Assembly: GCA_030272155.1 (NCBI GenBank) | Contig: CP126199.1 | Coordinates: 992,001-1,056,000 of the forward strand | Source: Tetradesmus obliquus | Lineage: Eukaryota > Chlorophyta > Chlorophyceae > Sphaeropleales > Scenedesmaceae | Direction of reading: 5' to 3' | Length of the DNA: 64,000 nucleotides | Shown: positions 86 through 59,874 of the stretch, piece after piece | How positions within the stretch are numbered: the first letter of the stretch is position 1 | How the letters are laid out: every line of letters starts with the position of its first letter | Translations under genes and position numbers: made by a program | The notes under the pieces: generated by a model | Database searches by the model: none | The model's input: only the letters and a program-made list of their open reading frames with translations | Told to the model about the DNA's origin: nothing

Positions 86-182
86 CGCGCAGTGAACCCG
101 CCCAACGAGCAGGAGGCCGCAGAGGCCGCAAAAGCAGCGCGGCTGCGCAAAGGGCAGCCGCTGCCGCTGGTGCAGCGCGTGG
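86..182 (+). repeat. AQR: Echo of AQR exon 353 start
   Basis: Diverged copy of the acceptor and first ~85 bases of the exon beginning at 353, including [20 protein letters not shown]. It diverges from the exon just after GTGCAGCGCGTGGG and lacks the rest of it. The pyrimidine-rich flank upstream is copied too, so the unit spans the intron end plus the exon start, about 265 bp apart. Confidence 0.85.
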
Positions 183-352
183 GTCCGCGCCGCTGCCATA
201 CAGCACTGATCATCCGCCCTCATGTTTGGCTGTGCTCCCCGCAGGCAAGCCGGCTGCTTACGAGCCCCATCCCTATCGTAATCGTGTATCTTGCTCCCTT
301 TATCAACACATCTGCACACCCCTTGTCTACCTTGTCTTATTCTTGCCTGCAG

Positions 353-3300
353 CGAACCCGCCCAATGAGCAGGAGGCCGCAGAGGCTGCGAAAGCAGCGC
401 GGCTGCGCAAAGGGCAGCCGCTGCCGCTGGTGCAGCGCGTGGGGCTTCTGGCGGTGCGTGGCGCTGAGGTGGTGGAGGTGCGGGACGAGGAGGGCGGCCT
501 GATGAATGACTTCACGGGCAGGGTGCGGCTGGACGAGCGCAAGCCACCCAAAGGTAAGGCAAATGACGTGAGGCAGATAGATGTGAGCAAGTAGCAGGGG
601 GCCACAGCAGGCGCTGAGCAGCCATGGTACTGGTTCATGGTATGCAGGATCACCAACGGCAGGCTGTGTTACATGAATCTGCTAAGTTGCGCCCGCCAGT
701 CACACCACCTGGGGGGATTCCCTCATCAAATGCTCATGAAATGCAGACAGCTACAACGGCATGGCCTGACATTACGTGAACATGTATCATTGGAGTCTTC
801 GTGCGCACATATGTGGTGGCGCTGCACGCTGCTCGATACCAGCTGGACGTGAACGCGACTGCATGGCTGACACATGAACCTAATTTTCCTCACTGCCGCA
901 GGCTTTGCGCGCACGTATGTGGTGGCGCTGGATGCGGCTCAATACCAGCTGGACGTGAACGCGACTGCATCGGGTGATGCGCCGGACGTGTACCCGGCGC
1001 TCAATGTGGTCATGCGGCGAGATGCCAAGGAGAACAACTTCAAGGTGCGGCTGCAGGGCTGGGAAGCGGCGATGCGTGCACAAGCAGAATAACAGCGCTG
1101 TGTGTGTTGCGCGCTGGCATGAATGCGATTGGGGTCCGGTTTTGTGCCGCAGCGGCATATTGCAAAACAGCTGTTGTGCATGTCATGTACGCCTATTTCG
1201 CTGCCTCTAGCACGTCAAATAGTAAGTAGGTCTGCGGCCAATCCTGCTGCTGTTGAAACCTGCTGCATGCTCTGCCACACAACATGTTCAACACCAGGCT
1301 GTGCTGGAGTCCATCCGTGACAGCCCCAACAGACAGCTGGTCACCTTGTGCTGCTGCTGTTCTCCCAGCATCGCCGTGGCATTGTCCGCGTTAGCATGTA
1401 GTCAACGAGCTGTACATGCACGCCTCATTTTCGTCGCTGCATTACTCTTCCTTTTAATTTGGCATGATATGTGGCTAACCTTGCTGCTGCCAAACTGTCA
1501 TGCGGCTGCCAAACTGTCGCAGGCCGTGCTGGAGTCCATCCGTGACAGCCTCAACGAGCAGCTGGTCATCCCTGAGTGGCTGGTGGACATCTTCCTGGGA
1601 TACGGGGACGCGGGGGCGGCACACTACAGCGCAATGCCGGGGCTGCTGCGCACAGTGGACTTCAAGGTGGGAGACCGTGAGACTGTCGCCGAGATATTGT
1701 ACTTGAAAAAATATAATTATAATTGAGTTACTCAAGGGAACAAAAGGTAGATTTCAACAAGAACAGCTAAGTTTACTGCTCTTAACAGCTGTTGAGTCAT
1801 GGGTGCTCAACAGAGTGCAGGTGTAGTACAGTGCGCATGCGATGTTTTGTTGTTGGGCGGAGCTGCTCAATGATGGCTGGAAGCGGATGCGTGTGTACGT
1901 GCTAGGGACGGTAGACTATGGCAGTACGCAGCATCATTGGCATGCGCCTTTGTTGAGTTCTGGCAGCTGTGGCTAACCATGCTCTACAGGCCGGGCCTGG
2001 CGTGTTGTTGTCTGGCTGCTATTGTTTTGCAGCAGCTGATGGCTGACCAGCGTGTTCTCTTTGTCGCTGCTGTCATTCGCAGGACACCTTCCTTGATGCG
2101 CAGCACCTGATCGACTGCTTTCCGCAATATGACGTCACATTCAGCAGCGGCAGCAGCAGCATCAGCACCGGCAGCGGCACATATGACGCAGCAACGCTGC
2201 CGCCGCCGCCTTACAAGGTCACTTTCCCCTCAGACCAGCAGCAGCTCAAGCCGGCACCGGGCAGCACCAAGCGCGGCGCAGACGCAAAAGCCACAACAGA
2301 TGTGGCAGCCGCCGCCGCGGCAGCAGATGGCAGCAGCAGCAGCAGTAGGCCGGTCCTGCTGGTGGAGCATTACAAGCCAATCAACATGGGGCCGTATCCG
2401 GAAGATAAGCCCAAGGGCAATGATGTGAGGTTCACATCGGTTCAGGTTGAGGCGGTGGCTGCGGGTGTGCAGCCTGGGCTGACGATGGTGGTGGGGCCGC
2501 CCGGCACTGGCAAGACAGACACAGCAGTACAGATCCTGCAGGTGAGAACCGCTTGTCCAGGTTATTTTGTTTTGCATGCAACCTTCCGTCAGGGTTAGGA
2601 TTTTAGGGTTTAGACTTAGTATTCCGACAGGGCGCATGCGGTGGTTCTGAAACAGGGCAGTAGTGAAAGCACCACCGCATGCGCCCTGTCATCGCATGCA
2701 CCTGCAGCCGCTCCTACTGCAGATTCTCTACATGGCAGATCTTCAGCTGATCGGCTGTCCTTAGTTGCTGCACCTCCTGTTCTGTGCTACGCGTTTCCTC
2801 TGTGGTTGCTAGGCTCAGCAGACCAGCTTTTGCAGCCTCGCCGTGCGTCGACACATTGTGGCTCCTGCCACGCGCGCCACACAGGCAGGGCCGCAACATT
2901 GCATGTACAGGCTCCCCTTACGCTTCTGCGCTGCTTTTCCGCCCGCCTTGCTTTATTTGTGCTGCAGGTGCTGTACCACAACTGCCCGGGGCAGCGCACG
3001 CTGCTCATCACGCACAGCAACCAAGCGCTGAACGATCTGTTCGAAAAGATGGTGGCGCGGGACATCCCCGCGCGCTACCTGCTGCGCTTGGGCATGGGCG
3101 AGCGGGACTTGAACGTTGATGATGACTTCTCGCGGGCGGGGCGCGTGAACAACATGCTTGCACGGCGCCTGACGCTGCTCGCAGAGGTGCGGATTGAGCA
3201 GCTTGCTGTGGTCTCTTTTGCTGTTGTGCGGCTTCTGGGTTGTGTCTTGGTATTGTGCTGCATTTCAGTCGTGGATGCTTTGAAGTGCAGGGTGCAACAG

Positions 3301-5880
3301 CATGCACATGTGTGGTGGTGAGTGCTGTGTGTATGGTCAGCAACATGGGCGATCAGGACTTGGATGTTGATGATGACTTTCGCTGGCAAGGCGCGTGAAC
3401 AACATGCTTGCGCGGCGCCTGACGCTGCTCGCGGAGGGAGGGATGAGCAGCTGTTTGTGGTTCTGTTACTTATGTTGTCATTCTTCTGCATCGGATGGAG
3501 GCACGTGCTGGCTATGGTATTCTGGTTCTGGGCTATGCATTGCTGTGGTGTGCCTATGCGCAACAAACGCTGCAGCATGCAGCAGTCCTGCCGTGCCTGC
3601 GATACGACCTGCAATGCTCTGTACAAGCCCTGTGCCCTGCGTTGCTGCCCTGCTGCCCTGCCTGGCTGGCGCCGTTGCTGCCATCGTTTCCCGCTTGCAC
3701 AGGTTGAGAAGCTGTCCAACCTGCTGGGGGTGCCACATGCTGAGTACACCTGCGAGACAGCCGGCTACTTTTGGCTGCTGCATGTGTTGAGCAGGTGCGC
3801 ATGGATTTGGTAGCAGCCAGGACTGCGGCTTGCATGATGCAGCAGCAGCAGGAGCGTTGTTAACACAGCGGAAGGGCAATGCTTGTACTGGTGACACCTA
3901 TCTTCATCTTATCCTTTAGGCGTTGTCATTGAAAGCAATGCTATTCGTGAACAGCCTATTGCGTTGCTGTATGGGGCCTGCGTTGTTTGCTACACCTTTG
4001 AGCACTTGTCGTCTTCAGCTGCTCTCCATGTGCTGCTCTGTCTTGTACTTCTTCACCAAGCACCGCATCAACCCTGGACTGAACATCTTGTACTTGACTG
4101 CCTCGTGTGTACGGCTGTTCTGCCGAAACCACCAAAATGAATCAATTGTGCAGGTGGGAGAAGTTCACTGCGGCTGTATCGTCACAGCAGCACAAGGGCG
4201 TGGCCGCGTCAGTGGGGGAGCTGTTCCCCTTCAAGGAGTTCTTTGCTGATGCGCCGCAGCCGCTGTTCAAGGGCAGCAGCTACGAGGAGGTGGGTCAACG
4301 GGCGTTTGACTGGATGTGTTATTTCTTGTGATGTTGTTTTGAATTCAAATGGTGCGCAAGCGAGCAATGGTGGTTGTTGGTATGGTCCGGAATCCTGCAG
4401 GACGGGCGTTGTACATGTCGCGCTGTCTGTTATTCGACCCTTGCAGGACATGGAGGCGGCGCAGGGCTGCTTCAGGCACCTACGGCTGCTGTCCGCCACC
4501 TGGGCTCATCTTCTCTGTGTCTGCCGCACGTTTGTGTCTCTTCCCCTTTCCGTTTCCCTTGCAGGACATGGAGGTGGCTCAGGGCTGCTTCAGGCACCTG
4601 CGGCTGCTGTTCCAGGAGCTGGAGGAGACGCGGCCTTTTGAGCTGCTCAAGGGCCAGGTGGGGGCCGGCTGAGACGCTGTTTGCAGTACTTTCAGATCAC
4701 ATGCGCTGAAGCAAGGGGGGGCACTTTCTCCACTGACAGCATCATCATCCCTTTTTAGCTGGCAACTTTAGAACATCTTATATACTATACAATTAAAATT
4801 ACTGCAAGTTTTCACAGGGGTTCTGAGGTGGTTTTGGGGTGGGGGGGGGGGGGGGGTGTCTGGGGCCCCACTAACTTTCCTGTCTTGGGCGTCCGAACTT
4901 TTTTGCCAGGAGCCCGATGAAGGCAAGAGTGGGCTCATATGAAAGCTTAGGTCATGTACTGTTTGTTGCACACGTTTTAGTATCCTGGCCATAAATACCA
5001 GAGGATAACAAGGTGGCAGACAGACGCCGAGACGCGCCCGGGGAGGCGGCAGTAACAGTACAGCAGATACATCAGATCGTTTGTGTGATGTTGCAATCAC
5101 GCCAAAGCACGGCTTTTAGGGTCCAGAAATGATATAATAGCTATTAAATAACATATATGTACTTCTGGGGCCTGACAGCGCACACTTCCGCAGTAGGGGG
5201 TGGGTGGGAGTCTAGGGCCCGTCAAGGTTTTTATGATGATGTCCTACACTTTCTTGCGTGCCTCCCCCCCCCCCCCCCCCCCCCGGCTGAAGTGAAAAGA
5301 ATGCGATTGTGGCCACGTGTGCCTGCTGAGTATGCTCTGTGCAACTGGCAAGGTTTTGGCAGCAGCCGCTCACCTTAGGTCAGTCAATCAACCACCCCAA
5401 CACTGATTCCGGTATACCTCTGCTAGGCACGCTATGCTGTTATGTGGCAACACGTGTGAGCTACCTGTGCAACAACTGAACCACGTGCCTACACTGACAC
5501 TGCGCAATGTGCTGTGCACCATATGCTGCTGCAGGCCGACCGCGTGAGCTACCTGTGCAACAAGCAAGCCAAGGTGGTTGCCATGACCTGCACGCATGCA
5601 GCGCTGAAGCGCCGTGAGTTCCTGAACCTGGGGCTCAAGTATGACAACATCGTCATGGAGGAGGCGGGCCAGGTGGGGTTTTGGAGGAGGTGTTTGACCA
5701 AGGGTTTGACCAGTAGTTTGACCAAGTAGTTTGACCAATGGGTTTGACTGGAGCTCTGTTGGTTCAGTTGGTAGTTTCTGTTGGTTGCATGTCATGCAGG
5801 CATGATGCAGCTGGGCTCACCAAATGCAACAAACCTACACAATAGCTTGCACCGCAATATGGCTGCTGCTGCTACTGACA

Positions 5881-5914
<34 letters not shown>

Positions 5915-6515: not shown

Positions 6516-6569
<54 letters not shown>

Positions 6570-9500
6570 GCCGTGCGCGCCCCAGCATCGCTGCGCTGTA
6601 CAACTGGAGGTATGGCGGGCTCAAAGACCTGCCCGCAGTCACACAGGTGAGAAAAAACTGCTTGCATTGCCCACTGCAGCGCAGTGAGATACCATGTAAC
6701 TCCTGGCAGTCAAGAACCCCAGTGCATGTGGTTCTCAGAACAGCAGGACCCTGCCAATACACAGCTGCTGGTGTTCATGCTGTACAGCAGTGACCCAGCA
6801 GCTCTTTGCAAGCGCTCCCTGGCTCTTCGCTTGTCCGCAGCCGCACTTTGCACAGTAGTAGCACGCACCTGATGTTTGATGTGGCCTCACCCCTTTCCTG
6901 CAAAACCTCTGTTTAAAACCTCAATTGTGCCAAACCTCCATGCTAAACCCCAACCCTTGTGTGCGCAGAACCCTGCCTTCCTGGCGGCAAACCCCGGGTT
7001 TGGCTTTGACTTCCAGCTGGTCAACGTGCCTGACTACAACGGCAAAGGGGAGAGCGAGCCGGCGCCCTACTACTACCAGAATCTGGGAGAAGCAGAGTAC
7101 ATCGTGGCAGTGTACAGGTGGGTTTGTGGTGTAGGTTTTACTTGTTTCTGGCAGGGCTGATTCTCCTCACTACTACCAGAACCTGGGGGAGGCGGAGTAC
7201 GTCGTTGTTGTGTGCAGGTGGGTGCACCATTGGCGTGCTCTGTTCTCTTGTTGTCTGCTGTTTTGTCGGCTGCTCTCTTTCAGCTTCAGCTTGCAAGACA
7301 GCTGTGCAGCGCCAGGCGATTTATGTGTCAAACGCTGCGAGCGGAGTAGCTTTTAACAGTTGTTGTCACGGTGCCTACCTACAAAGCCATGATTTACGCG
7401 CCGTTGATACTTAAAGTGCAAGGCAGCGAGCAGCGGCGCCACCACCAGACGTTTGTGGAGCTCCTTACGCGTGCCAAAACTTGACCTGGCATGCCAATCA
7501 CAAACACCATCTTCCGCTGCTGCTGCTGTCCACTCTCCCGAAATCTGTGCAGCTTCATGCGCCTGCTGGGCTACCCCGCCGGCAAGATCAGCATACATCT
7601 TACAAACATTTGGCGCTGCTGCTGCTGCTGCTTCTGCTGCTGTTTTTCAACTTGAATCACGTGCAGTTTCATGCGCCTGCTGGGCTACCCTGCGTCCAAG
7701 ATCAGCATCCTCACCACCTACAACGGCCAGAAGGACCTGCTGAGGGACGTGGTGGAGGCGCGCTGCGCAAACCACCCGCTCATCGGGCGGCCACACAAGG
7801 TGTGTTGCGGTGCCTGCAGGCTGCTTTGATTGTGTGCTCGTATGGCATGTGGGTGTGAATTGTGTTCTGGTGTGCAGCAGTGGTTGCACTTTGTCGGAGG
7901 GACGTGCGGTGGAGGCGCGCTGCGCACAGCATTCGCTCATCGTGCGGCCACACAAGGTATGATCTGTTGCATGGTTGCATCTGCATGGTACCCTCTCGCC
8001 ATACTGCCCCTTGCAAATCAACACCGTGGACAAGTAGCAGGGCCACAAGCCTGCAACTATGCATGCATGCCAACATGCGCAATCTACAAGTGATCACATT
8101 ATATAACAGGTTTTGAAGAAGTCTTTGAGCATTGTACCTCAACCTGTGCACACGTGGCTTCCGTTTAAACTGCCGCATATTACTACTGTGGACAAGTACT
8201 AGGGCCAGCAGAATGACTACGTGCTGCTGCCGCTGCAAATGCAACACCGACATGCGCATGTCGTTTGCCAAAACAGTCAAACACATGTGTGTACCTGCCC
8301 GCTACAGATCACTTCTGTGGAGAAGTACCAGGGCCAGCAGAACGACTACGTGCTGCCGTCTTTGCAAATTCAACACCAACATGCGCATGTATCACAAAAC
8401 AATCACGCATCCTGTGTACACCTGCCGCAGATCACGACTGTGGACAAGTACCAGGGCCAGCAGAACGACTACGTGCTGCTGTCGCTGGTGCGCAGCCGCA
8501 TCGTGGGCCACCTGCGAGACGTGCGGCGGCTGGTGGTGGCGCTGTCGCGTGCGCGGCTCGGGCTGTACGTGTTTGGGCGGCAGGAGCTGTTCGCAAACTG
8601 CTTTGAGCTGGCGCCTGCCTTTAGCAAGCTGCTGGAGCGACCCACACAGGTGGGTTCGGGTTATGCGAGCTGTGCTGACGCCAATACGGACGCTGTTATA
8701 GATGGACGCTGTTATAGATGGACGCTGTTATATGGGTCAGGTACAACCATTGCTGGTGTGTGTTGTGATGCTTGGGTTGCTGTTGTTTGTCAAGCTGCTG
8801 GAGCGGCCCACACAGGTAAGGCTGGCTGATGCGAGCTGTGCTGTCACGCGCTGTATCTCGTGTTGGGTGCACTGTCGCTGGTTTGTGTTGTGCTGCTTTG
8901 GTTGCTGGCATACAGCAAGCTGCTGGAGCGGCCCACACATTCTCATCTCATCTCATCACATCGCTGCTGCTGTGCTTGCAGCTGGCGCTGGTCAAGGGCG
9001 AGGCGTATGCCTCCTGCAAGCAGGCCCTCACAGACACGGCCCCACTGCAGCTGACTCATCACACATAACTCATCATTTGCTCGTTTCATTGCATTGCTGC
9101 GGCTGTGCTTGCAATCGCAGCTGGCGCTGGTCAAGGGCGAGGCCGCGCCTCCTGGTTGCAGCGTGAGACACCTGGTCAATGCTGACTGATCATGATTCTG
9201 ATCTCACCTCTCTGCTGCTGTCTTTGTTTGACCAGCTGGCGCTGGTCAGGGGCAAGGCCTATGCCTCCTGCACGCGGGCCCTCACAGACAAAACCCCGCT
9301 GCAGCTGACTTATGCATCACATCTGACTCATCATTTGCTCATTATGTGGCATTGCTGTTGTGCTTGCAACCGCAGCTGGCGCTGGTCAAGGGCGAGGCGT
9401 ATGCCTCCTGCAAGCGAGCCCTCACAGACAAGGCGCCCCTGCAGCTCATCGGCTCCCCGCAGGAGATGATGAGCCTCGTGGCAGCAGTCAGCAAGGAGCA

Positions 9501-9768
9501 GGCGGCAGCAGCAGCAGCGGCAGCAGTGCCGCCGCCGAGGCCGCCGCCGGGCACTCCGCCAGCAGCAGCAGCGGTGCCGGCGCCGCGGCCGCCGCCCGGT
9601 GCGCCAGCACCAGCAGCAGCAGCAGAGGGAGAGGATGTTGCTGCTGTGGCGGATGGGCAGGACGGTGCGGCAGCAGCAGCAGCAGGTGGGGCAGCGGAAG
9701 CGCCTGGGGATGCGGAGATGACAGATGCTGCTCCTGCAGCTGGCGATGCAGAGGCAAGCAAGCAGTGA
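353..9768 (+). CDS. AQR: Aquarius-type intron-binding spliceosomal RNA helicase (5' end outside window)
   Basis: SF1 helicase of the Upf1/Aquarius type, which binds the intron upstream of the branch site in the spliceosome. About 934 C-terminal residues are visible; the N-terminal half lies to the left. Exons: 353-553, 902-1044, 1523-1666, 2083-2541, 2968-3186, 3703-3794, 4154-4289, 4565-4657, 5535-5672, 5920-6004, 6167-6291, 6569-6646, 6969-7117, 7667-7799, 8431-8649, 9376-9768; all phases match. Motifs: Walker A GPPGTGKT (2494-2517), THSNQALN, motif II MEEAGQ (5655-5672), GDHHQLPP across the 6004/6167 junction, [17 protein letters not shown] and [10 protein letters not shown]. The order matches animal AQR throughout, including GCFRHLRLL and [11 protein letters not shown]. 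The C-terminal tail is Ala/Pro-rich low complexity. Introns hold many partial copies of adjacent exon edges (listed separately). Some echoes, such as the acceptor at 7551, could be used alternatively. Confidence 0.95.
797..864 (+). repeat. AQR: Echo of AQR exon 902 start
   Basis: Copy of the first ~70 bases of the exon at 902 ([18 protein letters not shown]), running into unrelated intron sequence. It lies about 105 bp upstream of the true exon. Confidence 0.8.
1293..1347 (+). repeat. AQR: Echo of AQR exon 1523 start
   Basis: Copy of the start of the exon at 1523 ([13 protein letters not shown]), about 225 bp upstream. The AG before it is preserved. Confidence 0.8.
3340..3440 (+). repeat. 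AQR: Echo of AQR exon 2968-3186 end
   Basis: Copy of the last ~90 bases of the preceding exon (around [23 protein letters not shown]) placed downstream in the intron. It carries small indels, so it is not in one open frame. Confidence 0.8.
4440..4492 (+). repeat. AQR: Echo of AQR exon 4565 start
   Basis: Copy of acceptor TTGCAG plus [15 protein letters not shown], 120 bp upstream of the real exon. It stays in frame and keeps its AG, so alternative acceptor use is conceivable. Confidence 0.8.
4787..5380. other. Intronic insert with G and C homopolymers
   Basis: The AQR intron 4658-5534 is unusually long and partly AT-rich. It holds a G run (about 4840-4858) and a C run (about 5263-5284) flanked by GGGGCC / GGGCCC, suggesting imperfect inverted symmetry around AT-rich DNA. 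No coding motif is seen. It may be a small unclassified element. Confidence 0.4.
5449..5475 (+). repeat. AQR: Short echo of AQR exon 5535 start
   Basis: About 25 bases matching the RVSYLCNN region of the exon at 5535, some 90 bp upstream. Confidence 0.6.
7167..7224 (+). repeat. AQR: Echo of AQR exon 6969-7117 end with donor
   Basis: Copy of the exon's 3' end ([12 protein letters not shown]) followed by the same CAG|GTGGGT donor, in the intron about 95 bp downstream of the genuine donor. Confidence 0.8.
7546..7595 (+). repeat. AQR: Echo of AQR exon 7667 start
   Basis: Copy of the acceptor GTGCAG and [13 protein letters not shown] about 116 bp upstream of the true exon. The AG and reading frame survive over this short stretch. 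Confidence 0.8.
7898..7960 (+). repeat. AQR: Echo of AQR exon 7667-7799 end with donor
   Basis: Copy of the exon end around VEARCA.H.LI.RPHK followed by GTATGA, about 155 bp downstream of the genuine donor. Exon 7667-7799 therefore has an echo on each side. Confidence 0.8.
8010..8365 (+). repeat. AQR: Three tandem echoes of the AQR motif-V exon start
   Basis: Copies at 8010-8050, 8171-8236 and 8295-8365 of the acceptor and start of exon 8431 ([17 protein letters not shown]). The two nearer copies also share about 60 bp of intron. Similarity rises toward the real exon; the two farther copies carry a stop in place of part of the YQGQ motif. Confidence 0.9.
8790..8938 (+). repeat. AQR: Two echoes of AQR exon 8431-8649 end
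   Basis: 8790-8820 repeats KLLERPTQ plus a GTAAGG donor. 8916-8938 repeats the same codons but has lost the donor. Confidence 0.8.
8975..9307 (+). repeat. AQR: Three echoes of the AQR last-exon start
   Basis: Copies at about 8975-9054, 9115-9146 and 9233-9307 of the acceptor and first ~70 bases of exon 9376 ([20 protein letters not shown]). Spacing is about 115-145 bp. Several keep a CAG acceptor and an open frame for more than 20 codons. Confidence 0.9.
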
Positions 9769-24304: not shown

Positions 24305-25650
24305 GCGGCGGCAGCAGTTGATGCTGTGGTGAGGGACGAGGTACCGCCAGAAAGCAGCAGCAGGCAAAGGCAGTACGCCACCTAGTATGATGATCATTGC
24401 AAGGGCACTTCAGTTGCGAAGGGCGTCACTCAGGTTGCGCTAAGCCCCCATCATACATATCAGATTTGCCTCGCACGTTGTCGCTGAACAAACAGCATCA
24501 TTTTTGCACCTAACCCATCCACGCACCATCCACAGGTCTCCTGAGATCCATGCCCTGCAGTCGCTCTTGCAGCCCACCCAGCCCATGCCTCCCCATGAGC
24601 ACAGCTCCCCTGGGGGCACCACATACACCTTGTACTTGAAGTCCTCCCAGTTGATGCCCAGCACGTGCTTCACATAGTCGTTAGCCACGTCGCTCCACTC
24701 TGCATGGCGGCAGCACGTGACAGATATTTTTGATTACAAGTTTGCACGGGAACATTGCATGCCCAGCACGTGCTTCACATAGTCGGCCACATCGCTCCAT
24801 TCTGCACGGCGGCGCAGTGTTTGCATGCATAGTGTATGTCAGCAACATTGGAGCACTCTCACATCCAGCACGTGGTTTGCATAGTCGTTGGCCACGTCGC
24901 TCCATTCTGCAGGAAGGAATGCATAGTGTTTGTCAGCAGCAATAAACATTAACCTAGCCAGCATGTGCTTCACAGTGTCGTTGGCCACATCGCTCCACTC
25001 TGCAGGAAGGATTGCATAGTGTTTGTCAGCAGGAACGAGACATTTTCATATCCAGCACGTGCTACACATAGTCGTTAGCCACATCGCTCCACTCTGCACG
25101 GCGGCAGACAACACAGCGGCAGACAAGCATGTGAGCTTGGACAACAATGACCTCAAATTCAAATGGCAGCATTAGAAACAGGCAAGTTCTCTCAGTGTGG
25201 CACCCTACCTGACGCACGATCCCAGCGGGGCGCTACTGTGCTGCACACCCAGGGGGCAATGCGCGCAACAGCAGGCAGCACTCTATGCAACTGCAAGCTG
25301 CCAGCCTGCCCCGCCAGCACCGCCAATTTTCATATGACCAAGCCTATAAATGGCCAGGTTGTTGCACACAGACATGGACAGCAGGCTGACGCGGCCCGAG
25401 GCTCACCTGTATAGGGGCACGTCAAGCTGTCAAAAGGAGCTCCCCAAGGCGTCTTGCCCGAGCAGTCGATCGGCACTGTCGCAGACACAACCTCACAGCC
25501 TGCTGATCGGCTGAAATCTGCATTGCCGTAGGAACAGGAGCTGAACATGCCTTGTAGGGTTTCAGGCTGGCTGTCTGCCTCGCCTTCAAACAGCGCAGCA
25601 GCAAGCTTTTCCGGGGTGGTGGCGGGGCCCTGCCCACACACCTGCGTGAT

Positions 25651-30669: not shown

Positions 30670-31552
30670 AGAAAAGGTCGAAAACAACGTAAGCAATGAA
30701 ACCTTCGTGTCATGCCATCCTCTACTCAGTACTGCGCAGGATTGAGCTCTAGGCGTATGCAGATCTAATGGTGGCCCTAAAAATTTGACCAGCCCTAGAA
30801 CGCCCCAACCTGGTGGGGACCATGCAGCGGCAGGTCCATCCAACAGGAATTGGAGATGCAGGTGGGCCCCAACTGAAAAAGTCAACAATACAGCAAGTTT
30901 AATGTTTGACCAAGCGTATCTAACAGCTGCCCTGTTGGCATTCGGTTTTGACAAGCCAGGCCAGGTCAGGCTGGGGCATTACACATGCTGTCATTTTTTC
31001 CTTAATTCTGGTAAGGGGATCCTGAGATCCTAGCACCCCATAGGTCCAACTAGCCAGCCCCGGGGTTTAACACCACAGCTGCCCTAAACCCTAGGGCCCG
31101 CTGTACGGGCGTCTTTTGACTTGGTGTTTCCACCCCAGCCCCTGTCCACCCAAGTTGGGTGGCAGGTGTGCCCAAACCATACCCCCCAATAATTACGTAT
31201 GCATGACCTTAAAACTGTGCAACGCTTCCAGCAAAACTTGATCCTCACAACACGTCAGCAACCCCGCTTTGCGTTCACACGGTGCCTCGCTCTTCAGCAG
31301 CGCCAGGCAGTCCTCCATCCTGCTGCTGCACTGCACTGCAGGTTCAACTCAACACGCACATACACACACATCATCAACTGCCTCGCCTGCCTGTGCACAC
31401 TCACAGGGAGCCTCGCTCTTGAGCAGTGCTAGGCAGTCCTCCATCTCGTTTGAGGCCAGCAGCTGCCCCTCCAGCCGCACCAGCACAGCCACAGCAGCCT
31501 TGAGCAGGGCCTGGTCCATCATCCAGCCATGCAGGATCACGTCCATCACCCT

Positions 31553-31594: not shown

Positions 31595-32758
31595 GCTGTG
31601 TTGACGTCCATCACACTACAGCAGCGGCAGCGCTCGACAGTGCACACCAGAACAGCTGCACTGCTACTAAAAGCCATTATGTATTATGAAACAGCAGCCA
31701 GAGCACCCCAGGCCTCACCACGCGCTGAAGCTCAAAGGGAAGTCTGCGCTGAAGTATGTCACACAGCAAAGCAGAATGAAGAAACCACAGTACAGCTTAG
31801 CAGCCAGAGCACTCCCAGCAGGCCTCACCGCGCGCTGAAGCTCGCAGGGAAGTCTGCGCTGAAGCATGGCCTGAGCCAGCTGGCGCCGTACAGCAGCGGA
31901 AGCACAGCACAAAACAGCCAACCACAGGCAGCAGACAACGCCCCGCCTCACCGTGCGCTGAAGCTGGCAGGGAAGTCTGCGCTGAAGCAGGTCATGAGCC
32001 AGCTGGCGCCGTGCAGCAACCACCACAACAGCAACGTCAGCCCTACCCCCGCCTCACCGCGCGCTGAAGCTGGCGGGGAGTCTGTGATGAAGCATTTCAC
32101 ACAGCGCAGCACAACACAGGAACCACAGCACAGCACAGCGCAGCGCAGCACAGCACAGCACAGCAACCACAGCCCCAGCCGAACCTCACCGCGCGCTGAA
32201 GCTTGCAAGAAAGTCTGCGCTGAAGCATATCACACAGCACAGCACGATGCAGCACCACAGCACAGCACAACCATGATAAGGCCTCACCGTGCGCTGAAGC
32301 TGGCAGGGAAGTCTGCGCTGAAGCACGTCATGAGCCAGCTGGCGCCGTACAGCAGCGGCAGCACGCCGTGGCTCTCCAGGTGCGCGTTGAGCCGCGGCGG
32401 GATGAGCCGCCCCAGCTGCCACAAGTGCGTCTGCGGCGATCGTGGCAGCAGCAGCAGCAGCAGCAGTATGGTCATGATTGTGATGAATATTGTCACTACA
32501 CGATACAGCTTCAACAGGGCCATGCAGGACGGCAGGTGTGCACAAAACAAAACACACCGGGAGGGAAGGTCACAACCAGGTCACAACCACACAATAAAGC
32601 CACCCACACTGCATTTACAACACCCACCTGCAGCAGCGACATGTCTGTGCTGTAGTAGCGGCGCAGCCCCCTGTCCTGCATCAGCACCACAAGCCCGCCA
32701 AACGCATGCCGCTCCGGCAGGTACATCAGCAGCAGGCCAGCCACAACTGCAGCAGCAT

Positions 32759-32799: not shown

Positions 32800-34627
32800 T
32801 TGCATGCAGCAGGCACAGCTGTAAGCAGTGCCAGAGCAGCTGTGCAGTCCTTGCCGCCGAACAGCTGCACCAATACAGGCAAGCAATTGCGCAATGGCAA
32901 GGCAGCGCGGCCTTAGCTGCAACCCCACACACGACTTCCTGCTGCCTTTGGACGCGATGGTGGTGCTGCTGCTGCTGCTGCTACAGCTGGCTACACAAAC
33001 CGTCACACTCACAGTTCATGCCCTGGCAGTAGCCAACCTGCAAGCAGTTGGCGGGCGGGTGGCGGGGATGCACAGATTGACTTTGTGAACTTAGATGCAT
33101 ATAGTGGCAGTGGTGCTACAGCTTGGTGGCAACATGGCAACATCGTGTCGCCTGCTGGCACATGTGTGGCTTGTGCTTGCGGTATACCACATACCCAGCA
33201 GAACCATGTGACACGAAATGTTATCACACATTCAAAAAACTTCAAACTGACATCTGACAGCTTACCTCCGGGTCGTATGCCGCGTAGGCGTGCAGCACGC
33301 GCCGCAGCGCCTGCTGACCCTCTGCTGTTGTGAAGCGGCGAGTAGCGGGGAAGGTGCGCGCGATGTCCTTTTCAATATCGTTGACTGCCTCATCGCTCAC
33401 AGGCTGCAGGAAACACAAGTGATGAAACACAGCAGCAACAGGCAAAGAGTTTTTGCGCATTGTTCCTGTAGTTGAGGCCAGTGCGATGTGCTTCTTAAAA
33501 CCAATGGCTGCTGGCGGCTCACAGGCTGCAGGAAATGCAGCCACACAGCAAGCCAGCAGCAGCCAAACAGTTGTTGTGCCGAGTGCTACTACTTGGTGTA
33601 AGTAGGAGCTGCAGCGTGACGATGTTGCGCACCGTGAGCAGCATGTACTTCGTATTTTGCTGCCGCGGCCATGCCCACGCTGCGCCGCTACAGCGAGCTC
33701 ATCCACAGCTCCAACCACAGGGTGCATGATGCTGGGGAGCCAGTGCCTTGAACGCGCGCTGCGCCTGTTGCCATCATTACACTTGCTGCCCCGCCCAGAG
33801 CTAGCACCCACTGCTGACGCCCCTCCCAAACACTATCACGCATATGCCTAAACTTCAACAACCAGCAACGCACCGTGAGCAGCATGTCTTCAAACTTTGC
33901 TGCCGCAGCCACGCCCACGCCGCGCCGCTGCAGCGAGCTCATCCACAGCTCCACACGCATCTGGCGAGGCGCCTGGTCCCACACGGTCTTGCCCACCTGC
34001 AGCGTGACCATCTCATCATCTTCCTGCAAGCGGTATGCATGTTTGATAATGCAGCAGCAGCAGCAGTATGCGTTATGGTAGGGTTACAGCTGCTTGGTGC
34101 GCAACTCTGAGCTGTTGGTGTGCGGCAAGCAGAGCCGTGCGGTGTTGGGAGAGGGCTTGCTGCTGCCAGCATGTCCTGCAACTTGCAGGAACGTGTGCCT
34201 GCCCAGCCAGGCAGCAAGGCTTGCCCCCGGCCGAGCTGCTGCCTTGCTCACACGACGTAACTATGCTGCGGATGAAGCCAGATGGCAAGCACCTGGGAGG
34301 GTCCACACCTGCTGATGGTTTCAAAATATGATGTGCATGCTCGCAGTGTGCAACACGCGCGCTCAGCTGCTGTGGCTGTGCATGCACTGCCCACACGCAC
34401 TGCCAAAAGCATTGCTATGTGATTAAGCTTGATATCTAGCAGTTGTGACTGCGTAGGCGTCGCTGTTTGTTGCTATGGTAGCTGTAGGCGCTGCTACTGC
34501 TGCTCAGCAGAAGCTGCATGTGTATGAGCCAGCTGCTGCACCCGATGTTGAGTGCTCCACGCACCAGCAGCTTAACAGCATTCCTCTGATTGTTGAAGAG
34601 GCCTTTCAGGCCTCCAAATCTCCGCAT
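29261..34627 (-). CDS. TBC-domain Rab GTPase-activating protein
   Basis: Exons: 34565-34627 (tentative first), 33874-34023, 33266-33403, 33013-33037, 32628-32746, 32288-32430, 31405-31550, 29261-30615; 712 aa, phases all match. TBC proteins accelerate GTP hydrolysis by Rabs in membrane traffic. Both catalytic fingers are present: IEKDIARTFP (arginine finger, exon 33266) and GYCQGMN (glutamine finger, on the 25-nt microexon 33013-33037). Then LLLMYLPERHAFGGLVVLM, YYSTDMSLLQ, LNAHLESHGVLPLLYGASWL and FSARVMDVILHGW, standard TBC order. The 450-residue last exon is Ala/Gln/Ser-rich and probably disordered. Exon 1 (MRRFGGLKGLFNNQRNAVKL) was selected on donor phase and the lack of stops; another start is possible. 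Introns carry many splice-edge echoes. Confidence 0.88.
30617..30667. repeat. CAG array before TBC last exon
   Basis: Interrupted CAG run; CTG in the gene's sense, abutting the acceptor of exon 30615. Confidence 0.9.
30700..31260. other. Intronic stretch without exons
   Basis: Part of the long TBC intron 30616-31404. Different base texture, with CCCC/GGGG-rich words and little triplet repeat; no motif or terminal repeats found. Possibly an old insertion. Confidence 0.3.
31270..31322 (-). repeat. Echo of TBC exon 31405-31550 end
   Basis: In the gene's sense it repeats MEDCLALLKSEAP and then a GTGTGA donor-like word, about 130 bp past the genuine donor. Confidence 0.8.
31553..31625 (-). repeat. 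CAG array and echo of TBC exon 31550 start
   Basis: A CAG array (CTG in sense) adjoins the acceptor of exon 31550. Immediately upstream, 31603-31625 repeats the acceptor plus VMDV codons of that exon. Confidence 0.75.
31710..32230 (-). repeat. Five echoes of TBC exon 32288-32430 end
   Basis: Copies at 31710-31760, 31820-31906, 31945-32016, 32050-32095 and 32182-32230 repeat the exon's 3' end (LMTCFSADFPASFSAR and, in two, LYGASW upstream) with a following GTGAGG donor. All lie downstream of the true donor in the same intron, spaced about 100-130 bp. Several keep donor and frame. Confidence 0.92.
32766..32798. repeat. CAG array before TBC exon 32746
   Basis: About 11 CAG units, CTG in the gene's sense, about 20 bp upstream of the acceptor. 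Confidence 0.9.
33600..33722 (-). repeat. Long echo of TBC exon 33874-34023 end
   Basis: Copies about 100 bases of the exon (LELWMSSL, then RR.VG.AAAAK) and the GTGCGC donor region, about 240 bp downstream. It contains an in-frame stop and a shift, so it is not a functional alternative exon. Confidence 0.85.
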
Positions 34628-39708: not shown

Positions 39709-40614
39709 TGGCGATGGTTGATCGTTGCTGCCTGCCTGCACACACTGGCCCATGGGTGTAGCTGCTGGTTCGTTGCACGAGGGAAGAGTTGCTGGAGGGT
39801 GACTAGACTTGCTGTTTGACTTGTTGTTTGACTTGCTGGATGTTGCTTATCCGACACTTGTTGACTATGTTTGACCAGCGCACCTGCATGGGAGCTTCTG
39901 GCGATTGGCAGCTGCCTACACCTCTGCTTGCTGCATGGTTTCAGCTCAGACTTGGGAGTATCAATGCCTGATGCTGCTGCATGTGCATCTGGGCGCAAGC
40001 AGCTATCAGCAGGGTCGCTGACGTGTCAGTGCTTATGCAGCCAGCTGCTGTGGTGATTGTGCATGTGCTAGTGAAGAATGAATCATGAACCCCAAATGCC
40101 AGCGAGTACTGCTGTGGGAGGAGCAGATAACAAACGCTAATCAGCGCTACACCTGGCTGCATTGCATTGCATTGCATTGCATGTCTTTGTTTGGGGATGG
40201 TGCCAGTAAGAGAGTCCTGCTGCAGCAGTATGCAGCCGCCCGTCCCTTGTGTGCATCCATGCATGTGCATCATGTGCATAATGTGCACTGCTGTTTGTGT
40301 GCACTTCACATACTGTAGACCAGCTTACGTATGGGCTTTTGGGCCACCTGTACTGCAGAAATTTGGGAATCGTCTTGGTTGTACTTTTGAAGAGTGACTG
40401 CTTTCACTCGCTCGCAGGTTGTACTGCTTCATTTGCACTAGCATTTGAGTTGAATGTGTTGGTGCCTGGCATACCATACCATACCATCAGCTGCTGCTGT
40501 GCTGTACCGCATGCATTGCATTCATGTTGCACATGTGGTTTTACTTCAGGCTCTGCACTCGCATCCACTGGCATTTGCATCAAGTGTGCTGGTGCTGCGG
40601 CAAACCCCTGCTTG

Positions 40615-41048
40615 CTGCCTGCCAGCCTGTACCATTTGATGACAGGAGACAGTGTTATGCAAGCTAGCTGCCTGCCAGCCTGTACCATTTGATGACAGGA
40701 GACAGTGTCACGGCTAGCTTGCTGCCGCCAGCCTGTACCATTTGATAACAGGAACGCAGCATCATGGCAAGCTTGCTGCCGCCAGCCTGTACCATTTGAT
40801 GACAGGAACGCAGCATCATGGCAAGCTTGCTGCCTGCCAGCCTGTACCATTTGATGACAGGAGGCAGTGTCAAGGCAAGCTTGCTCCCTGCCAGCCTGTA
40901 CCATTTGACGACAGGAACGCAGCATTATGCAAGCTTGCTGCCTGCTAGCCTGGTACCATTTGATGACTAGAAAACAGCGTTATGCAAGCTTGCTGCCTGC
41001 CAGCCTGTACCATTTGATGACAGGAGACAGCATCTTGGCGACCTTGCC
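40615..41048. repeat. 54-bp minisatellite, eight copies
   Basis: Eight adjoining copies of a ~54-bp unit containing CTGCCTGCCAGCCTGTACCA and TTTGATGACAGGA, differing mainly in the last 20 bases. Two sub-variants exist (GAGACAGTGT and GAACGCAGCA) and partly alternate. 54 bp is 18 codons, which produces artefactual long frames on the minus strand. Confidence 0.92.
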
Positions 41049-43088: not shown

Positions 43089-45777
43089 TTACCCCTGCTG
43101 CTGCTTGGGCCTGCTGTACACGCCATTGTGCGCCTCTATCTTGCCCTGCCCTGCCATAATCTGCAAAAACGCCCCCAGCTGCTCTTGGCTGCGGCCTTCA
43201 TACTTAGGCTCCCCAACCACAAACACGCGCAGCATGTTGTGCAGGCGGTCCAGCGGCAGGCTGCCGCAGTTGGTGAGCAGGCCAATGATGTAGTTCTCGA
43301 AGGGACCCATTTCTGCTGCAATGCGGTCGTCGGCGCTGGCGGCAGCTGCGGTGTCGTCTGCCCAGCTGGCGTCTGTCACCTCCCGGCTCACTGCGGCGGT
43401 GGAAAGTTGACAAAGGGAGGAGGGTTCAGAGAGGGACACAGACAGAACAGTGGCAGAGAAAGTCAGAGTCGTGATGAGCCAAAACAGCCGGCCAGAAACA
43501 GGCATGCAATCATCAAAGCCAATCATAGTGGCAGGCATGGGGCGGCGTTATCAGGCGCCCGCATATGCCCTGCAGGCTGCATATACTGCTGGCAGACTAA
43601 AACCACTGCCAATCGCCTGCTCACCTATCCGGCTGGGGTCGATGCTGTTGGCTCTGCTGTACGCAATCTCCCCTGCCTTGCCCCGCTGCTCCAACAGCAC
43701 CCCGGCAGCCACCCAGAACATCGCCTTGCGCCGCACCACAGGCACAGGCACCTTCAGCGCCGCCGACAGCTGCCCGGCACTCAACACAACACCTGACCCT
43801 CCTCCTGCTGTTGCTGCTGCTGCTGCTGCACTGCCAGCGCTTGCCGAAGCTGCAGCTGCTGCAGCGGCAGCAGGGCTGTCGTCGGAGAACTGCAGCAGCA
43901 GCGCTGCGTGAGCAGGGGTGACTCGGAAATCCAGGGGCTCTGCATCTCCTATGGTGAGGGTGAGCTCCACCAGGCCGAGGCTGGGCCGCCACTCGAGCTT
44001 GCGGGGCGCCTTCAAATGCCGGAAGCGCTCCGCATACACCTGCGCACGGTGTGTGTGATCGTTAGCCGGCGTGTACTCATTATAAGGTGTGGCAGAAGAA
44101 TTGTTGAATCAGTGCAGCATGTGGCAGGGCGATCAAGAGCGCATGCTAAGAGGGAGACAGGCGAGCAGCAGCACTTTACACACAGTCCATCTGCGCATGC
44201 AGCAAGTGGTTCAAAAGGAGCACTATTGCTTAATGCCAGCGGCAGCTTCCAGCCCAATGCTGCTGCACGTAACCTGTGCTGCAGCAGCTGCCAGCATACA
44301 AGGGCCACTCACGTCTAGTGCAGTCTGCAGGTCAGCCGGCAGCTGTAGCTCATGCTCCGGAAGCTCCGGCCAAAACAGGTAGGAGCAGATCGTGGCGCGC
44401 AGGCGAGTCAGCGCGGCAGCGACGCCCTCCGGAAGCGCCTGCTGCTGCTGCTGCTGCTGCTGGGGGAGTGCCCGCACGTTTGCATCCAGGCGCTTGGAGT
44501 CTGCCAGGTCTTTGAGCATGACCTCGCAGGGCAGCAGCCCCGCCTCGCCAAACCTGCAGAAAAGTTTAAATGTTGTTACAATCAGAAGTAAAACCTGAGA
44601 TGGCAAGACTGTGCCGCATGTCTTGCGGGCGGGAGTGGCATCCATTCAGGGGTGCTCGCTCCAGCACGCACACGCACGCATGCACGCACGCACGCAGCCA
44701 TACAGCTACAAACATACAGCGCAAACAAACGATGATACACAGCACACTGCAGCCCACCTGATTTTAAGCAGCTCCAGCGTCATGATTTCTCTCTGGCAGT
44801 CATAGCCATCCTTGGCAAGCAGCCGCTCTCCAAGCATACCGCGGTACTGCTCCATGAACAGCAGTGGGCCGCCATAAATCCCAATCAGCATCGACACAAC
44901 ATCAGAAGCAACACGGCCGCCACACAGCAGCGCCGGCGAGCCAGCAGCAGCAGCAGCAGAGTGCGCCTGCGGGAGGCCTAGCAGACCCGCGGCTTGCTTC
45001 ACCTCCGATGCTGCTGCTGCAGGTGCTGGTGCTGGTGCTGCTGCTGCATCAGGCGCTGCTGCCTGTAGTGCCTCGAGCAGCCGAAGAGCAGCATCGTCTC
45101 CTTCTGCCTCGCTCACGCACCAGTTAAACAGTACCCTAGCACCAGCCTTGCCATTCCCCGCATTCGAAAGCGCCGCAACCGCGCTCGGAGGCACCACAGC
45201 AGCAGCCAAACCTGCGCCGCCGGCTGCACCCCCAAACCCTGTGCCGCTGCTGCCGCCGGCGGCGCCGGACCCTGCACCACCATGCTGCTGCTGCTGCTGT
45301 TGTGCTTGCAGCTCTTGCAGAAGGCTACTGCCTGAGCCTCCATTGGCGCTGCTGTCATCTTCTGTTAGCATTGATACAATGCAGCGGATGGTGTCGGGCC
45401 TACTGCGCAGGTATGCGCGAATGGGCTCACTGACAATATCCAGCAGCAGGCCTGAGGCAGACACAGCATGCAGCACCAAAGACACACATGATGGGTTGAT
45501 GCACACATGAGGGCTTGGTAGGATGGGTTGAGGGCTCACTGACAATGTCCAGCAACATGCCTGAGACAGACACAACATGCAGCATTATATGCACACATGA
45601 AGGGTTACCACACCCATGAGGGTTAAACAGAATAGAGAGAGAATGGGTTGTGCCGGGTAGCGGCTTGCTTGTCATAGCACGCTGCTGCAGCAGCATCTGC
45701 AAGTGCATAAAAGAATGGCATCATCAACATCCTGCATGAAGCCCTGCCCATTCCAGCTGACGGCAACAACTGCAGCA

Positions 45778-45816
<39 letters not shown>

Positions 45817-48502
45817 GCGGCTGCTCTCACCACTCCTGCTCCAGAGCCGTAGGCGTTTGCTGCATCACAACGTGAAGCCGGGCTGTCGCTGCTAATTGTT
45901 GCAGACCAAAAGCAGCAGCAGCAGCATCGGCTGCACTCACCGCTCCTGCCCAGCTGGCGCATGGCGCGGATGGTGGAGACGTATGTGTGGATGATGTCCG
46001 AGGTTGCAGCGCCGGCATGCAGCAGCCGCTGCTGCAGGGATGACTTGAAGGTGGCAGCAAACTGGCAGCAGCAGGGCAGCAAGGGCAGCAGGGCAGCAAT
46101 GGCAGCAGGGCAGCAATGGCAGCAGGGCAGCAATGGCAGCAGGGCAGCAGAGCCGCTTGAGTGTGCGAGCAGGTTATCAGCGGCGATAACAAGCTCACTT
46201 ATAGCTTGATGTTTCCGTGTGTGCTGAGCGGGTCTGGGACCAGGGTTGTGCTTTACACAGGCCGTCTTATCAGTGTTGTGGCGGTACTCCCCGTGTCCTT
46301 TCACCAAGCAACGCTGCACGCTACCATCAATCGTATTGTCGTGTTGGCGTCAGCACCAGCAGCACGCTTGCCAACACACAAAAAACCAGTTACAAAGCTG
46401 CACAAAACAACATTCCGGCTCACCTGCGCAGCCATGTTGGTGTGTGCCAGGCACAGCGCTAGGTCTTGCAGTGCAGGGGCGCTGTCGGGGTACTCGATGA
46501 CGATGTCAAACATGTCGGAGGCCCGCAGCGCGCCCAGCGTCTCCAGCATGAGGTAGGTCAGGCGCAGCTGCCACTCCTGCAAGAGACAGGCAGGCACACA
46601 AATCAGCGAAATATATTTGATAAAACGGTGACACCGACGCCTGCAAGCAGCGTCGCAGACACGACGGGTACACTTGATGAGCATGCATGCATTTGCGCGG
46701 CGTTTCTGAGCATGAGGTAGGTCAGCCGCAGCTGCCACTCCTGCAAGCAGCATCGCAGGCACAGGGGTGCACATGATGCACATTTCATACGGTGTACACA
46801 CGGGTACACATGATGAGCATGCAGCAGCGCGCCCAGCGTCTCCAGCATGAGGTGGGTCAGCCGCAGCTGCCACTCCTGCAACCAGCATCGCAGGCACACG
46901 GATTGTGCAGGGGTGCACACAGGCATGAGCAAGCATGCATCCGCGCACCCAGCGTCTCAGCATGAAGTAGGTGAGCCGCAGCTGCCACTCCTGCAGGCAG
47001 CATTGCAGGCACAGGGGTGCACATGGGTTAAAGAAGCCTGCTGCAGCGGCCCCGCCAGGTGTAAGCATAAAGTGAGCATGCTGCACTGCCCTCAGCGCCT
47101 TTGAGCATGAGGTAGGTCAGCCGCAGCTGCCACTCCTGCAAGCAACATCGCAGGCACAGGGGGTTCACATGATGAACATTGCACACGGTAAACACACGGG
47201 TGCACTTTATGAGTATGCACCAGCGCGCCTAGCGTCTCGAGCCATGAGGTAGGTCAGCCGCAACTGCCACTCCTGCAAGCATCACCGCAAGAAAACGGAT
47301 GTGCATGATGGGCATGCAGCAGCGCCTCCTGCATCTCTAAGCATGAGGTGGGTCAGTCGCAGCTGCATCTCCTGCAAGCAGCGTTGCAGGCACAGGGGTG
47401 CACATGATGAGCAAGCATGCATCTGCGCGCCCAGCGTCTCCAGCATGAATCGCATCTCTGCCGGCTAAAGGACGAGTTCTGCACTTGCAAACAGATCCGG
47501 CAGCAGGGACTGCCACCCACGCGCAGACATGCTGTTACTGCCGATGCTGCTGCTAGTGCACCTGGACCAACAGCTTGATCAAACATGATGCACCTGAAGT
47601 TGGACCAGCGTGCTTTGACCCTGCCCCAGCAGCACTTGCAGGAACGCCAGAGGCCCAGCACAGACCAGCTGCTGCTAGTGCACCTGGACCAACAGCCCGG
47701 TCAAACATGACGCACCTGTAGTTTGACCAGCGTGCTTTGGCCCTGCCCCAGCAGCACTTGCAGGAATGCCAGAGGGCCAGCACACACCAGCTGCTGTGCG
47801 CGTGGCAGCACTGAGCTCGCTAGCTCACCAGTGGCCAGTGTGCGCAGCTGCTGCAGCACATAGCTGCACACACACCAGCAAAATGTACACAGCAGTTGAG
47901 GGGCACAGAGCAGGCAGGCATGCAGGCAGCACTAGTATGGCGGCAATGCTGCGCAGCATGTGTTGTGCAGACGAGTGGATGCCAGCAGTGCAGCGCTGCT
48001 GCGTTGATGTCGGCTGGCATGCATGTAAGCTGCGGCACATCTGTGGGCGGCATGCAGCGCAGACACGAGGTTTGCTCAATAATGTGCAGCAGCGGCACCA
48101 GTCCTGCACACATACCTGTTGATGACAGCCGTGTATGCTTCCTCTGATGCTGCCGCCAAGCCCAAGTCCTCCAGGCATGCAGCAGTTGCAGCCACAGCAG
48201 CACACCACTCAGCACCCAGCAGGGCCTGCGGGTCCGGCAGCTGCGCTGCTGCTGCTGCTGCGCCAGCGCCCTGCCTGCACACACACACGCGTGCATAACA
48301 ATAGCAGCAGCAGTAGGAGCAGTAGCAGCAGGGCTGCAGGGGTGAGGGGTGAAAGTGCAAATACATCATGGGAACAAATGCACTTGCTGCCTGCGCACAC
48401 TGTAGGCGGGATGGCTTGTTGACAGCACAGCACATGCCGCTGCAACAATCTCTTTCCTATGCTCCAAATGCAGCGCTGCCACCACCATCAGCCAACAGCA
48501 AT

Positions 48503-49301: not shown

Positions 49302-49355
<54 letters not shown>

Positions 49356-59587: not shown

Positions 59588-59735
59588 CTAATCCAAAGGA
59601 GGGTACTGCGCTGCCTGCTTGCGTACCAGCTGCGTGTACTCTGCCCGCTTGGTTTTGTAGCACTGGTATGCGGGCATCTGCGCTGGGCTCTGGATGTTGG
59701 GCGTGTCCAGCAGCTCCTACAGGCAACACAACACA

Positions 59736-59771
<36 letters not shown>

Positions 59772-59874
59772 GCAGCGTAATGACATCAAATAGGCAAGGT
59801 GGAAGTGACGTTGTGCGTCGGGTGTGTCTAACAGCTCCTGCCAGCAGCACACGGGTGTGTGACACAACAGACAG

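Follow-up and report, generated by a model that had tools for sequence, protein, structure and literature searches.

Dense local tandem duplication of exon edges in introns of the green alga Tetradesmus obliquus

Here we describe introns of Tetradesmus obliquus that carry partial copies of the edges of their neighbouring exons, which we term "echoes": a head echo repeats the start of the next exon with its acceptor, and a tail echo repeats the end of the previous exon with its donor. The starting point was a window of 64,000 nucleotides (assembly GCA_030272155.1, contig CP126199.1, positions 992,001 to 1,056,000 of the forward strand) in which five genes contain such segments. We found that the echoes are a real and very dense local tandem duplication that is not limited to this window, since they are present on six of the nine contigs sampled, two doubtful cases on contig 2 not being counted. 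We give an even chance to the explanation that echoes are old tandem duplications of exon edges that kept the reading frame, the exon part of each copy being refreshed from the exon while its intron part decays.

The sampled DNA totals 324 kb, about 0.3% of the assembly (104.66 Mb in 17 contigs, with a GC content near 57% in the genome examined). It comprises block A, which is the window (contig 9:992001-1056000) plus 20 kb of flanking sequence, 84 kb in all; blocks B and C, of 90 kb each, on contigs 1 and 2; and six further stretches of 10 kb (D, E, F, H, I and J) on contigs 3, 5, 7, 11, 13 and 16. All gene models are our own predictions: 16 exons of the AQR gene were placed by hand and used as the seed of a purpose-built, stricter gene finder. 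Blocks A to C yielded 365 predicted exons, of which 29 were set aside as echoes and 266 of the 336 others were kept at a score of at least 5; the six small stretches contributed 48 exons at a cut-off of at least 8, and the trusted set used for counting holds 314 exons and 585 splice edges. A predicted exon that copies part of a longer, better-scoring exon was treated as an echo, a rule without which some copies would be counted as small whole exons. Protein homology supports the rule in the AQR, TBC, Clp protease, kinase and DUF726 genes, and for the other genes it is an assumption.

Repeat relations (spacing 60-500 bp, at least 45 bits) were set against the trusted exons. Those that join an exon to non-exonic DNA, which are not independent events, number 121 when block C is left out: 61 copy a head and lie upstream, 59 copy a tail and lie downstream, and a single one copies an exon interior. 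No copy among the 121 holds a whole exon, a result that depends partly on the echo rule, and none lies on the wrong side of its edge; both properties had been proposed in the preliminary description of the window and both extend to the larger sample. Equal copying of interiors and edges, named beforehand as grounds for abandoning the idea, is far from the observed 1 interior against 120 edges. Four additional relations outside block C join an exon to other exonic stretches, and the one whole-exon relation there has another exonic stretch as its partner.

Copies are borne by 64 of the 585 edges: 24 of 137 in block A, 29 of 155 in B and 2 of 204 in C, followed by 1/18, 1/7, 0/5, 5/20, 2/24 and 0/15 in stretches D, E, F, H, I and J, respectively. 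A second count, which excluded block C and allowed larger distances, gave 63 edges (30 head, 33 tail) with 137 echo copies, one at 31 edges, two at 15, three at 6, four at 5, five at 3, six at 2 and eleven at 1. The spacing of successive copies (n = 137) has a median of 126 bp, with quartiles of 115-145 and a 5-95% range of 100-243, so that the 100-140 bp first proposed describes the centre of a slightly wider spread. Of the exon itself, a median of 57 nt is copied. Head-to-tail arrays of at least two echoes occur at 32 of the 63 edges, and several arrays were also found by Tandem Repeats Finder (TRF). The share of intron bp that edge arrays add is 22% for block A, 16% for B and 2% for C, in agreement with the earlier suggestion that the duplications make introns grow.

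Self-comparison of the window returned 76 repeat pairs, 65 of them local (less than 4 kb apart), and 62 of these 65 are direct. The automatic count found 33 echo copies at 16 splice edges, 2 of the 33 lying just left of the window; it missed three echoes in AQR (5453-5475, 8013-8045 and 8914-8939), two in APC2 (45532-45622 and 45801-45844) and one in UBC9 (about 59812-59837, seen by eye). More than 30 segments distributed over all five genes, as first reported, are thereby confirmed, and so are the gene names, AQR by its match to the Aquarius protein and TBC, M11, APC2 and UBC9 by Pfam. The 16 hand-set AQR exons form one continuous open frame that aligns, without echo peptides, along the Aquarius of solved spliceosomes and, through exon 14, with the transcript-derived protein of a relative (P0001); the AQR protein is 83% identical to P0001 and 68% identical to that of Monoraphidium minutum. 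After the end of exon 14 (IGRPHK) P0001 departs from AQR in a way that resembles intron read-through, and the exon 14/15 edge where it diverges bears a tail echo in this genome. The Pfam match of TBC comes from an exon chain without its echo exons, exons of the UBC9-like gene match UQ_con, and gene pieces match Peptidase_M11 and ANAPC2 outside their echo-bearing exons, the M11 gene being named from a neighbouring exon. The features of the window are as follows.

Left of the window, at about -439 and -177, forward strand: AQR, the other two head echoes of exon 353-553
93..183, forward strand: AQR, third of three head echoes of exon 353-553, ~260-bp tandem array with shared intron part
353..553, forward strand: AQR, real exon, first of the window part
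796..864, forward strand: AQR, head echo of exon 902-1044, period 106
1298..1343, forward strand: AQR, head echo of exon 1523-1666, period 225
3344..3470, forward strand: AQR, tail echo of exon 2968-3186, period about 251
4438..4492, forward strand: AQR, head echo of exon 4565-4657, period 118, splice consensus alone shared on the intron side
5453..5475, forward strand: AQR, head echo of exon 5535-5672, short (23 nt) and weak
7169..7223, forward strand: AQR, tail echo of exon 6969-7117, period 100
7547..7594, forward strand: AQR, head echo of exon 7667-7799, period 114
7897..7961, forward strand: AQR, tail echo of exon 7667-7799, period 155
8013..8045, forward strand: AQR, decayed head echo of exon 8431-8649
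8170..8360, forward strand: AQR, two head echoes of exon 8431-8649, period 129, one with an in-frame TAG
8791..8843 and 8914..8939, forward strand: AQR, two tail echoes of exon 8431-8649
8965..9306, forward strand: AQR, three head echoes of exon 9376-9768, edges at 8982, 9121 and 9236
24756..25107, reverse strand: Peptidase M11 gene, four head echoes of exon 24527-24699, edges at 25093, 24999, 24906 and 24801, period about 95
31275..31319, reverse strand: TBC, tail echo of exon 31405-31550
31691..32227, reverse strand: TBC, five tail echoes of exon 32288-32415
33628..33713, reverse strand: TBC, tail echo of exon 33874-34011
45532..45622, reverse strand: APC2, head echo of exon head 45423-45513, sharing about 60 nt of intron and 31 nt of exon
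45801..45844, reverse strand: APC2, tail echo near exon 45941-46031
46640..47449, reverse strand: APC2, array of six head echoes of exon 46424-46576
59812..59837, reverse strand: UBC9-like gene, short copy of the head of the last exon, whose real head is at 59691-59716, by eye

CTG/CAG runs stand directly before several acceptors and echo acceptors (window 6517-6565, 5862-5913, 59737-59776 and 59872-59930) and mislead repeat searches and self-trained gene finders. The window also holds a 39-bp minisatellite near the Peptidase M11 exons (23325-23563, 6 copies, 97% alike), a 54-bp minisatellite at 40610-41047 (8 copies) where there is no clear coding signal, and, at 62050-63397, a family of repeats in direct and inverted orientation, roughly 100-400 bp long and 70-86% alike, with the appearance of a small cluster of transposons or miniature inverted-repeat transposable elements (MITEs).

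The edge bias was evaluated against a chance model in which units of the observed lengths were placed randomly in gene bodies, arrays having been collapsed first; arrays outside gene models (7/39 in A, 0/33 in B, 1/8 in C) and one whole-exon array of block B were excluded. Among edge-spanning and intron-only arrays, the edge-spanning share is 31/32 in block B, against 33% expected (p = 2e-14), and 25/32 in block A, against 41% expected (p = 2e-5). Some predicted genes are fused, and the models miss the UBC9 exons and some APC2 exons, so that the intron-only counts of block A are likely too high; some of its "intron-only" arrays adjoin exons absent from the models, for example at APC2 45423. 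The plainest explanation of such figures is random tandem duplication with purifying selection and plain decay, under which copies of edges remain visible longer because one of the two copies is conserved. If edge copies are assumed to be twice as detectable as others, p becomes 6e-9 in B and 0.015 in A; at threefold detectability it is 1e-6 in B and 0.14 in A, which is then no longer unusual, and at fourfold B still gives 3e-5. Tandem duplication combined with reading-frame selection does lead to the side rule and to the lack of whole-exon and interior copies, and among the listed two-copy units with full-length homology a small informal count by eye put edges and non-edges at about equal numbers. 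The edge bias and the sharp junction described below do not follow from duplication and selection alone, however, and the figures for block B, the unrelated introns adjoining exon parts that are 94-100% identical and the paralogue pattern on contig 13 all argue against this explanation. Without refreshing or targeting, it is already strained, and we regard it as improbable.

Echoes are nearly absent from block C (contig 2:1000001-1090000), where both flagged edges lie within one old repeat of 68% identity; its proportion of echo-bearing edges differs from that of B with p = 1e-9 and from that of A with p = 1e-8 (Fisher test). The block shows 8 interior relations, every one between exonic stretches. 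It has a GC content of 0.60 and a median intron of 267 bp, against 362 and 449 bp in the other two blocks.

Next, we consider where the homology between an echo and its source ends. In an ungapped comparison of the outermost echo with the real edge, anchored at the junction, identity is 0.84 over 30 exon bases and 0.76-0.80 at intron positions 1-6, where unrelated edges used as control reach 0.64-0.79; it then falls to 0.49-0.51 at positions 7-10, 0.36-0.40 at 11-20 and 0.27-0.35 at 21-40, against a background of 0.25-0.27. Gapped alignment of the outermost copy with its neighbour detects shared intron at z >= 5 in 10 of the 63 edges, leaves 14 between, and gives z < 3 in 39, which show no homology detectable past the splice-site consensus. 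The idea that the duplicated unit spans the exon-intron boundary is thus plain in 10/63 edges and lacks a detectable shared intron in 39/63. Complete tandem copies that include intron are found, for example, at block B 41132, in the array of AQR exon 353 and at APC2 45423. Furthermore, 33 single echoes have a mean intron z of 5.1 with p <= 0.05 in 55%, indicating that weak intron kinship is common; two of the 33 come from block C and have high values, 12.0 and 10.8.

Loss of intron homology is not confined to diverged copies: among the 31 edges with an exon identity of at least 0.88, the intron is shared in 7 and not shared in 18, and some units combine exon parts that are 94-100% identical with intron parts that are unrelated or nearly so. 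At the block B 86613 tail the exon part is identical over 25/25 nt and the intron gives z 3.4 and 1.6 in two alignments; little or no intron is shared beside the near-identical exon parts of the B 19247 head (43/44) and the AQR 4565 head, and at all three edges the splice sites are well formed in both copies. Near-identical exon parts beside unrelated or nearly unrelated introns suggest, on the sequences compared, different ages within one unit.

The same observation is accommodated by the main rival of this reading, an edge-targeted birth, in which a break in an exon would be repaired by copying from the sister, an allele or a paralogue and then be end-joined rather than annealed. Synthesis would leave the exon and run into the template's intron, and a diverged template pairs in exons and not in introns, so that already at birth the echo would differ silently in its exon part, carry a good splice site and adjoin an unrelated intron. 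Such a process accounts for the edge bias even among similar copies, for the unrelated introns beside 94-100% identical exon parts, and for an excess of differences at codon position 3 in all classes; the exon head of one echo is, by eye, nearer to two sister genes than to its own gene. Related repair products have been published, as far as the passages concerned go, as tandem duplications arising in C. elegans from aborted homologous repair with polymerase-theta joining (PMC8654963) and, in mouse cells, as small duplications where breaks are staggered (PMC8355091). This rival nevertheless requires wholly different introns between alleles with near-identical exons, and the class with shared intron has the same position-3 excess (2.70 vs 2.78), so that the excess does not mark diverged templates. 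We consider edge-targeted birth unlikely, though deserving of serious attention. A staggered-break "copy-filler-copy" model was ranked low because it predicts random ends on the intron side, and the observed ends lie at the splice consensus.

That many introns are affected together and that the decoys resemble the splice sites of introners could suggest mobile introner-like elements, or else an assembly artefact. Seven spacers, joined as one query against the whole assembly in a search that skips simple repeats, matched their own loci and one paralogous gene only; against the local blocks, microsatellite-like and short chance matches were among the matches listed. An artefact is contradicted by the divergence of the copies (mean exon identity 0.88-0.91) and by their being common to paralogues. 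We attach almost no credence to either possibility.

The age of the echoes was approached through codon positions and paralogues. Echo and exon differ at about 4-8% of codon positions 1-2 and 16-21% of position 3 in every class. On contig 13, a family of three genes carries one echo (echo 1) at the matching place in all three and a second (echo 2) in two of them. Between genes, the introns match after echo 1 (z 4.7-6.1) and at the real edge (z 2.5-14), and weakly after echo 2 (z 2.8); within genes, the intron beside the exon shows no match to that beside echo 1 (z 0.2-1.0) and a weak one to that beside echo 2 (z 2.3 and 3.2). Echo 1 of the third gene agrees with its own exon at 38/41 positions, against 34-35/41 with the orthologous echoes, and has different breakpoints and a longer exon part that by eye resembles the exon of the other two genes: in this member the exon part has been refreshed. 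In their real-edge introns the third gene is distant (28 of 45-46) and the first two are close (42/48). Taken together, this pattern indicates that echo positions are old and exon parts younger. A cluster of at least five partial matches to the family lies at contig 11:2463597-2509192, and the one examined has no clear echo. Paralogue searches with the A8 gene right of the window and with the DUF726 gene of block B returned only their own loci.

Two further signs point to renewal. The nearest echo is more exon-like than the farthest at 19 of 30 edges, the reverse holding at 9 (p = 0.04), and differences within echoes are mildly clustered (z 2.9). One array, in a Clp protease gene, has spacers without a difference across four units and exon parts with silent differences, which bears out the earlier proposal of local duplication with array growth by exchange.

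The explanation that we favour would run as follows. Local tandem duplications of about 100-160 bp, running from within an exon into the adjacent intron or the reverse, would arise in genes, and the survivors would be those that leave one intact exon and splice site, which would mean that they copy exactly one edge and lie on its intron side. Selection would hold the real exon, and after birth the two parts of the unit would age unevenly: the exon part of the echo may occasionally be refreshed from an exon through unequal exchange or gene conversion, because exon and splice consensus are the sole stretch that still pairs, and the intron part would decay to nothing. Intron-only duplications, having no such anchor, would fade, leaving an edge bias.

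Several points weigh against this explanation. Block B is far from expectation even at doubled detectability, so that birth itself may be edge-biased, and block A is mildly unusual at doubled detectability and unremarkable at threefold. The near-absence of echoes in block C is not explained by the model. Differences are 2.4-2.8 times as frequent at position 3 as at positions 1-2 (3.3 times in a first count, whose zero frame shifts are by construction), which exceeds the factor of about 1.7-2 estimated for a neutral echo beside a constrained exon and may reflect diverged alleles as templates. Renewal is seen in one family of three genes, two of them close, and both the clustering of differences and the near-far effect are weak. 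Finally, the non-exonic status of the copies rests partly on the echo rule.

Next, we examined the strength of the echo splice sites. Echo acceptors have a median score of 6.3, against a mean of 6.5 for real acceptors and 0.1 for random AG, and echo donors a median of 5.2, against 5.9 for real donors and 0.6 for random GT; the best echo scores at least as high as the real site for 17/30 heads and 18/33 tails. Predicted use of the nearest echo site shifts the frame at 42/63 edges, meets a stop at 36/63 and is in frame and open at 10/63. The preliminary description suggested that the echoes could be a standing source of alternative splice sites, a suggestion that the near-real scores support and the few open, in-frame cases curtail. 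Seen by eye, the echo AG or GT is retained in 56 of the 63 outermost copies (AG 27/30, GT 29/33), approximately the level expected from 5-8% neutral decay, and neither selective loss nor selective retention of echo splice sites was seen in these 63 copies.

These scores, together with the silent-site excess, could speak for a selected function of echoes as alternative half-exons or regulated decoy splice sites. This is very unlikely, because the nearest site so rarely keeps an open frame, spacings are multiples of three in only 48/137 cases, some echoes contain stops or indels and AG/GT retention does not rise above the neutral level. The stops and indels together with these spacings led us to take echoes as non-coding, and translated echoes were rejected as a candidate, as echo sites do not keep frame. 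In block B, an array of 120-bp units (44782-45221; contig 1:1044782-1045221) has 60-nt exon parts that were called as in-frame mini-exons, and going by these models its echoes might be spliced in. According to the gene models, the site used is the one nearest to the opposite end of the exon. Exon definition, which favours the acceptor and donor lying nearest to each other across the exon, is the likely basis of this choice over decoys and would probably explain why strong decoys are tolerated.

Intron growth is usually ascribed to transposons or to insertions at random. In two of the three blocks of 84-90 kb examined here, edge copies supply about 16-22% of intron length, and in the third 2%. 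Echoes also provide naturally occurring series of decoy splice sites that are almost equal in strength, and the choice among them could be read from RNA; edge bias and echo renewal are open to testing in population data. A broader proposal, which we offer tentatively as possible rather than probable, is that a conserved exon would serve its neighbourhood as an enduring template: exon breaks would be repaired by outward copying from the sister, an allele or a paralogue with mis-joining, introns would grow from their edges and echoes would be renewed. If so, intron growth would be directional and exon-anchored, and dozens of near-equal decoys beside the used site would provide a natural test of exon definition. 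As for the initial interpretation as a whole, tandem duplication, exchange and intron growth stand, and the boundary-spanning unit, the splice-site source and the novelty stand in part.

Among known systems, tandem exon duplication and mutually exclusive exons repeat whole exons; echoes resemble them in repeating exon sequence in the neighbouring intron and differ in being restricted to edges. With minisatellites they share head-to-tail arrays of similar units, seen at the 32 of 63 edges with at least two echoes. Introners, reported from green algae and other groups, build introns and have ends that resemble splice sites; in the passages concerned they form dispersed families (PMC9860276), whereas each of the seven spacers tested is restricted to its own locus or gene family. 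Break repair that leaves small tandem duplications is a plausible source of units of about 100 bp, and the relevant passages are silent on any preference for exon edges (PMC8355091, PMC8654963). Exonic tandem duplication is described, in the sections consulted, as an accepted route of intron gain (PMC3443670, PMC2891723). Exonic AGGT duplication and echoes are alike in being local, in involving exon sequence and in being tolerated through splicing; in the former the duplicate lies inside an exon and an intron is created, whereas in the alga interiors make up 1/121 relations and existing introns grow. In the comparison excerpted from the published genome of Tetradesmus obliquus, the mean intron of 462 bp is the longest among five green algae (PMC5966456). 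The echoes come close to a single case in the potato RdRp gene, where, in the passage concerned, a tandem duplication that crossed an intron-exon boundary gave rise to a new intron (PMC4974935). The preliminary description knew of no named precedent; this potato duplication is one, and searches of an open-access library, which lacks most subscription papers, turned up no account of comparable density, sidedness and junction. As far as that account goes, the potato case is one gene and one event that made a new intron, whereas in the alga 64/585 edges, heads and tails alike, bear copies, far more densely, with the exon unchanged and mostly no shared intron past the splice consensus.

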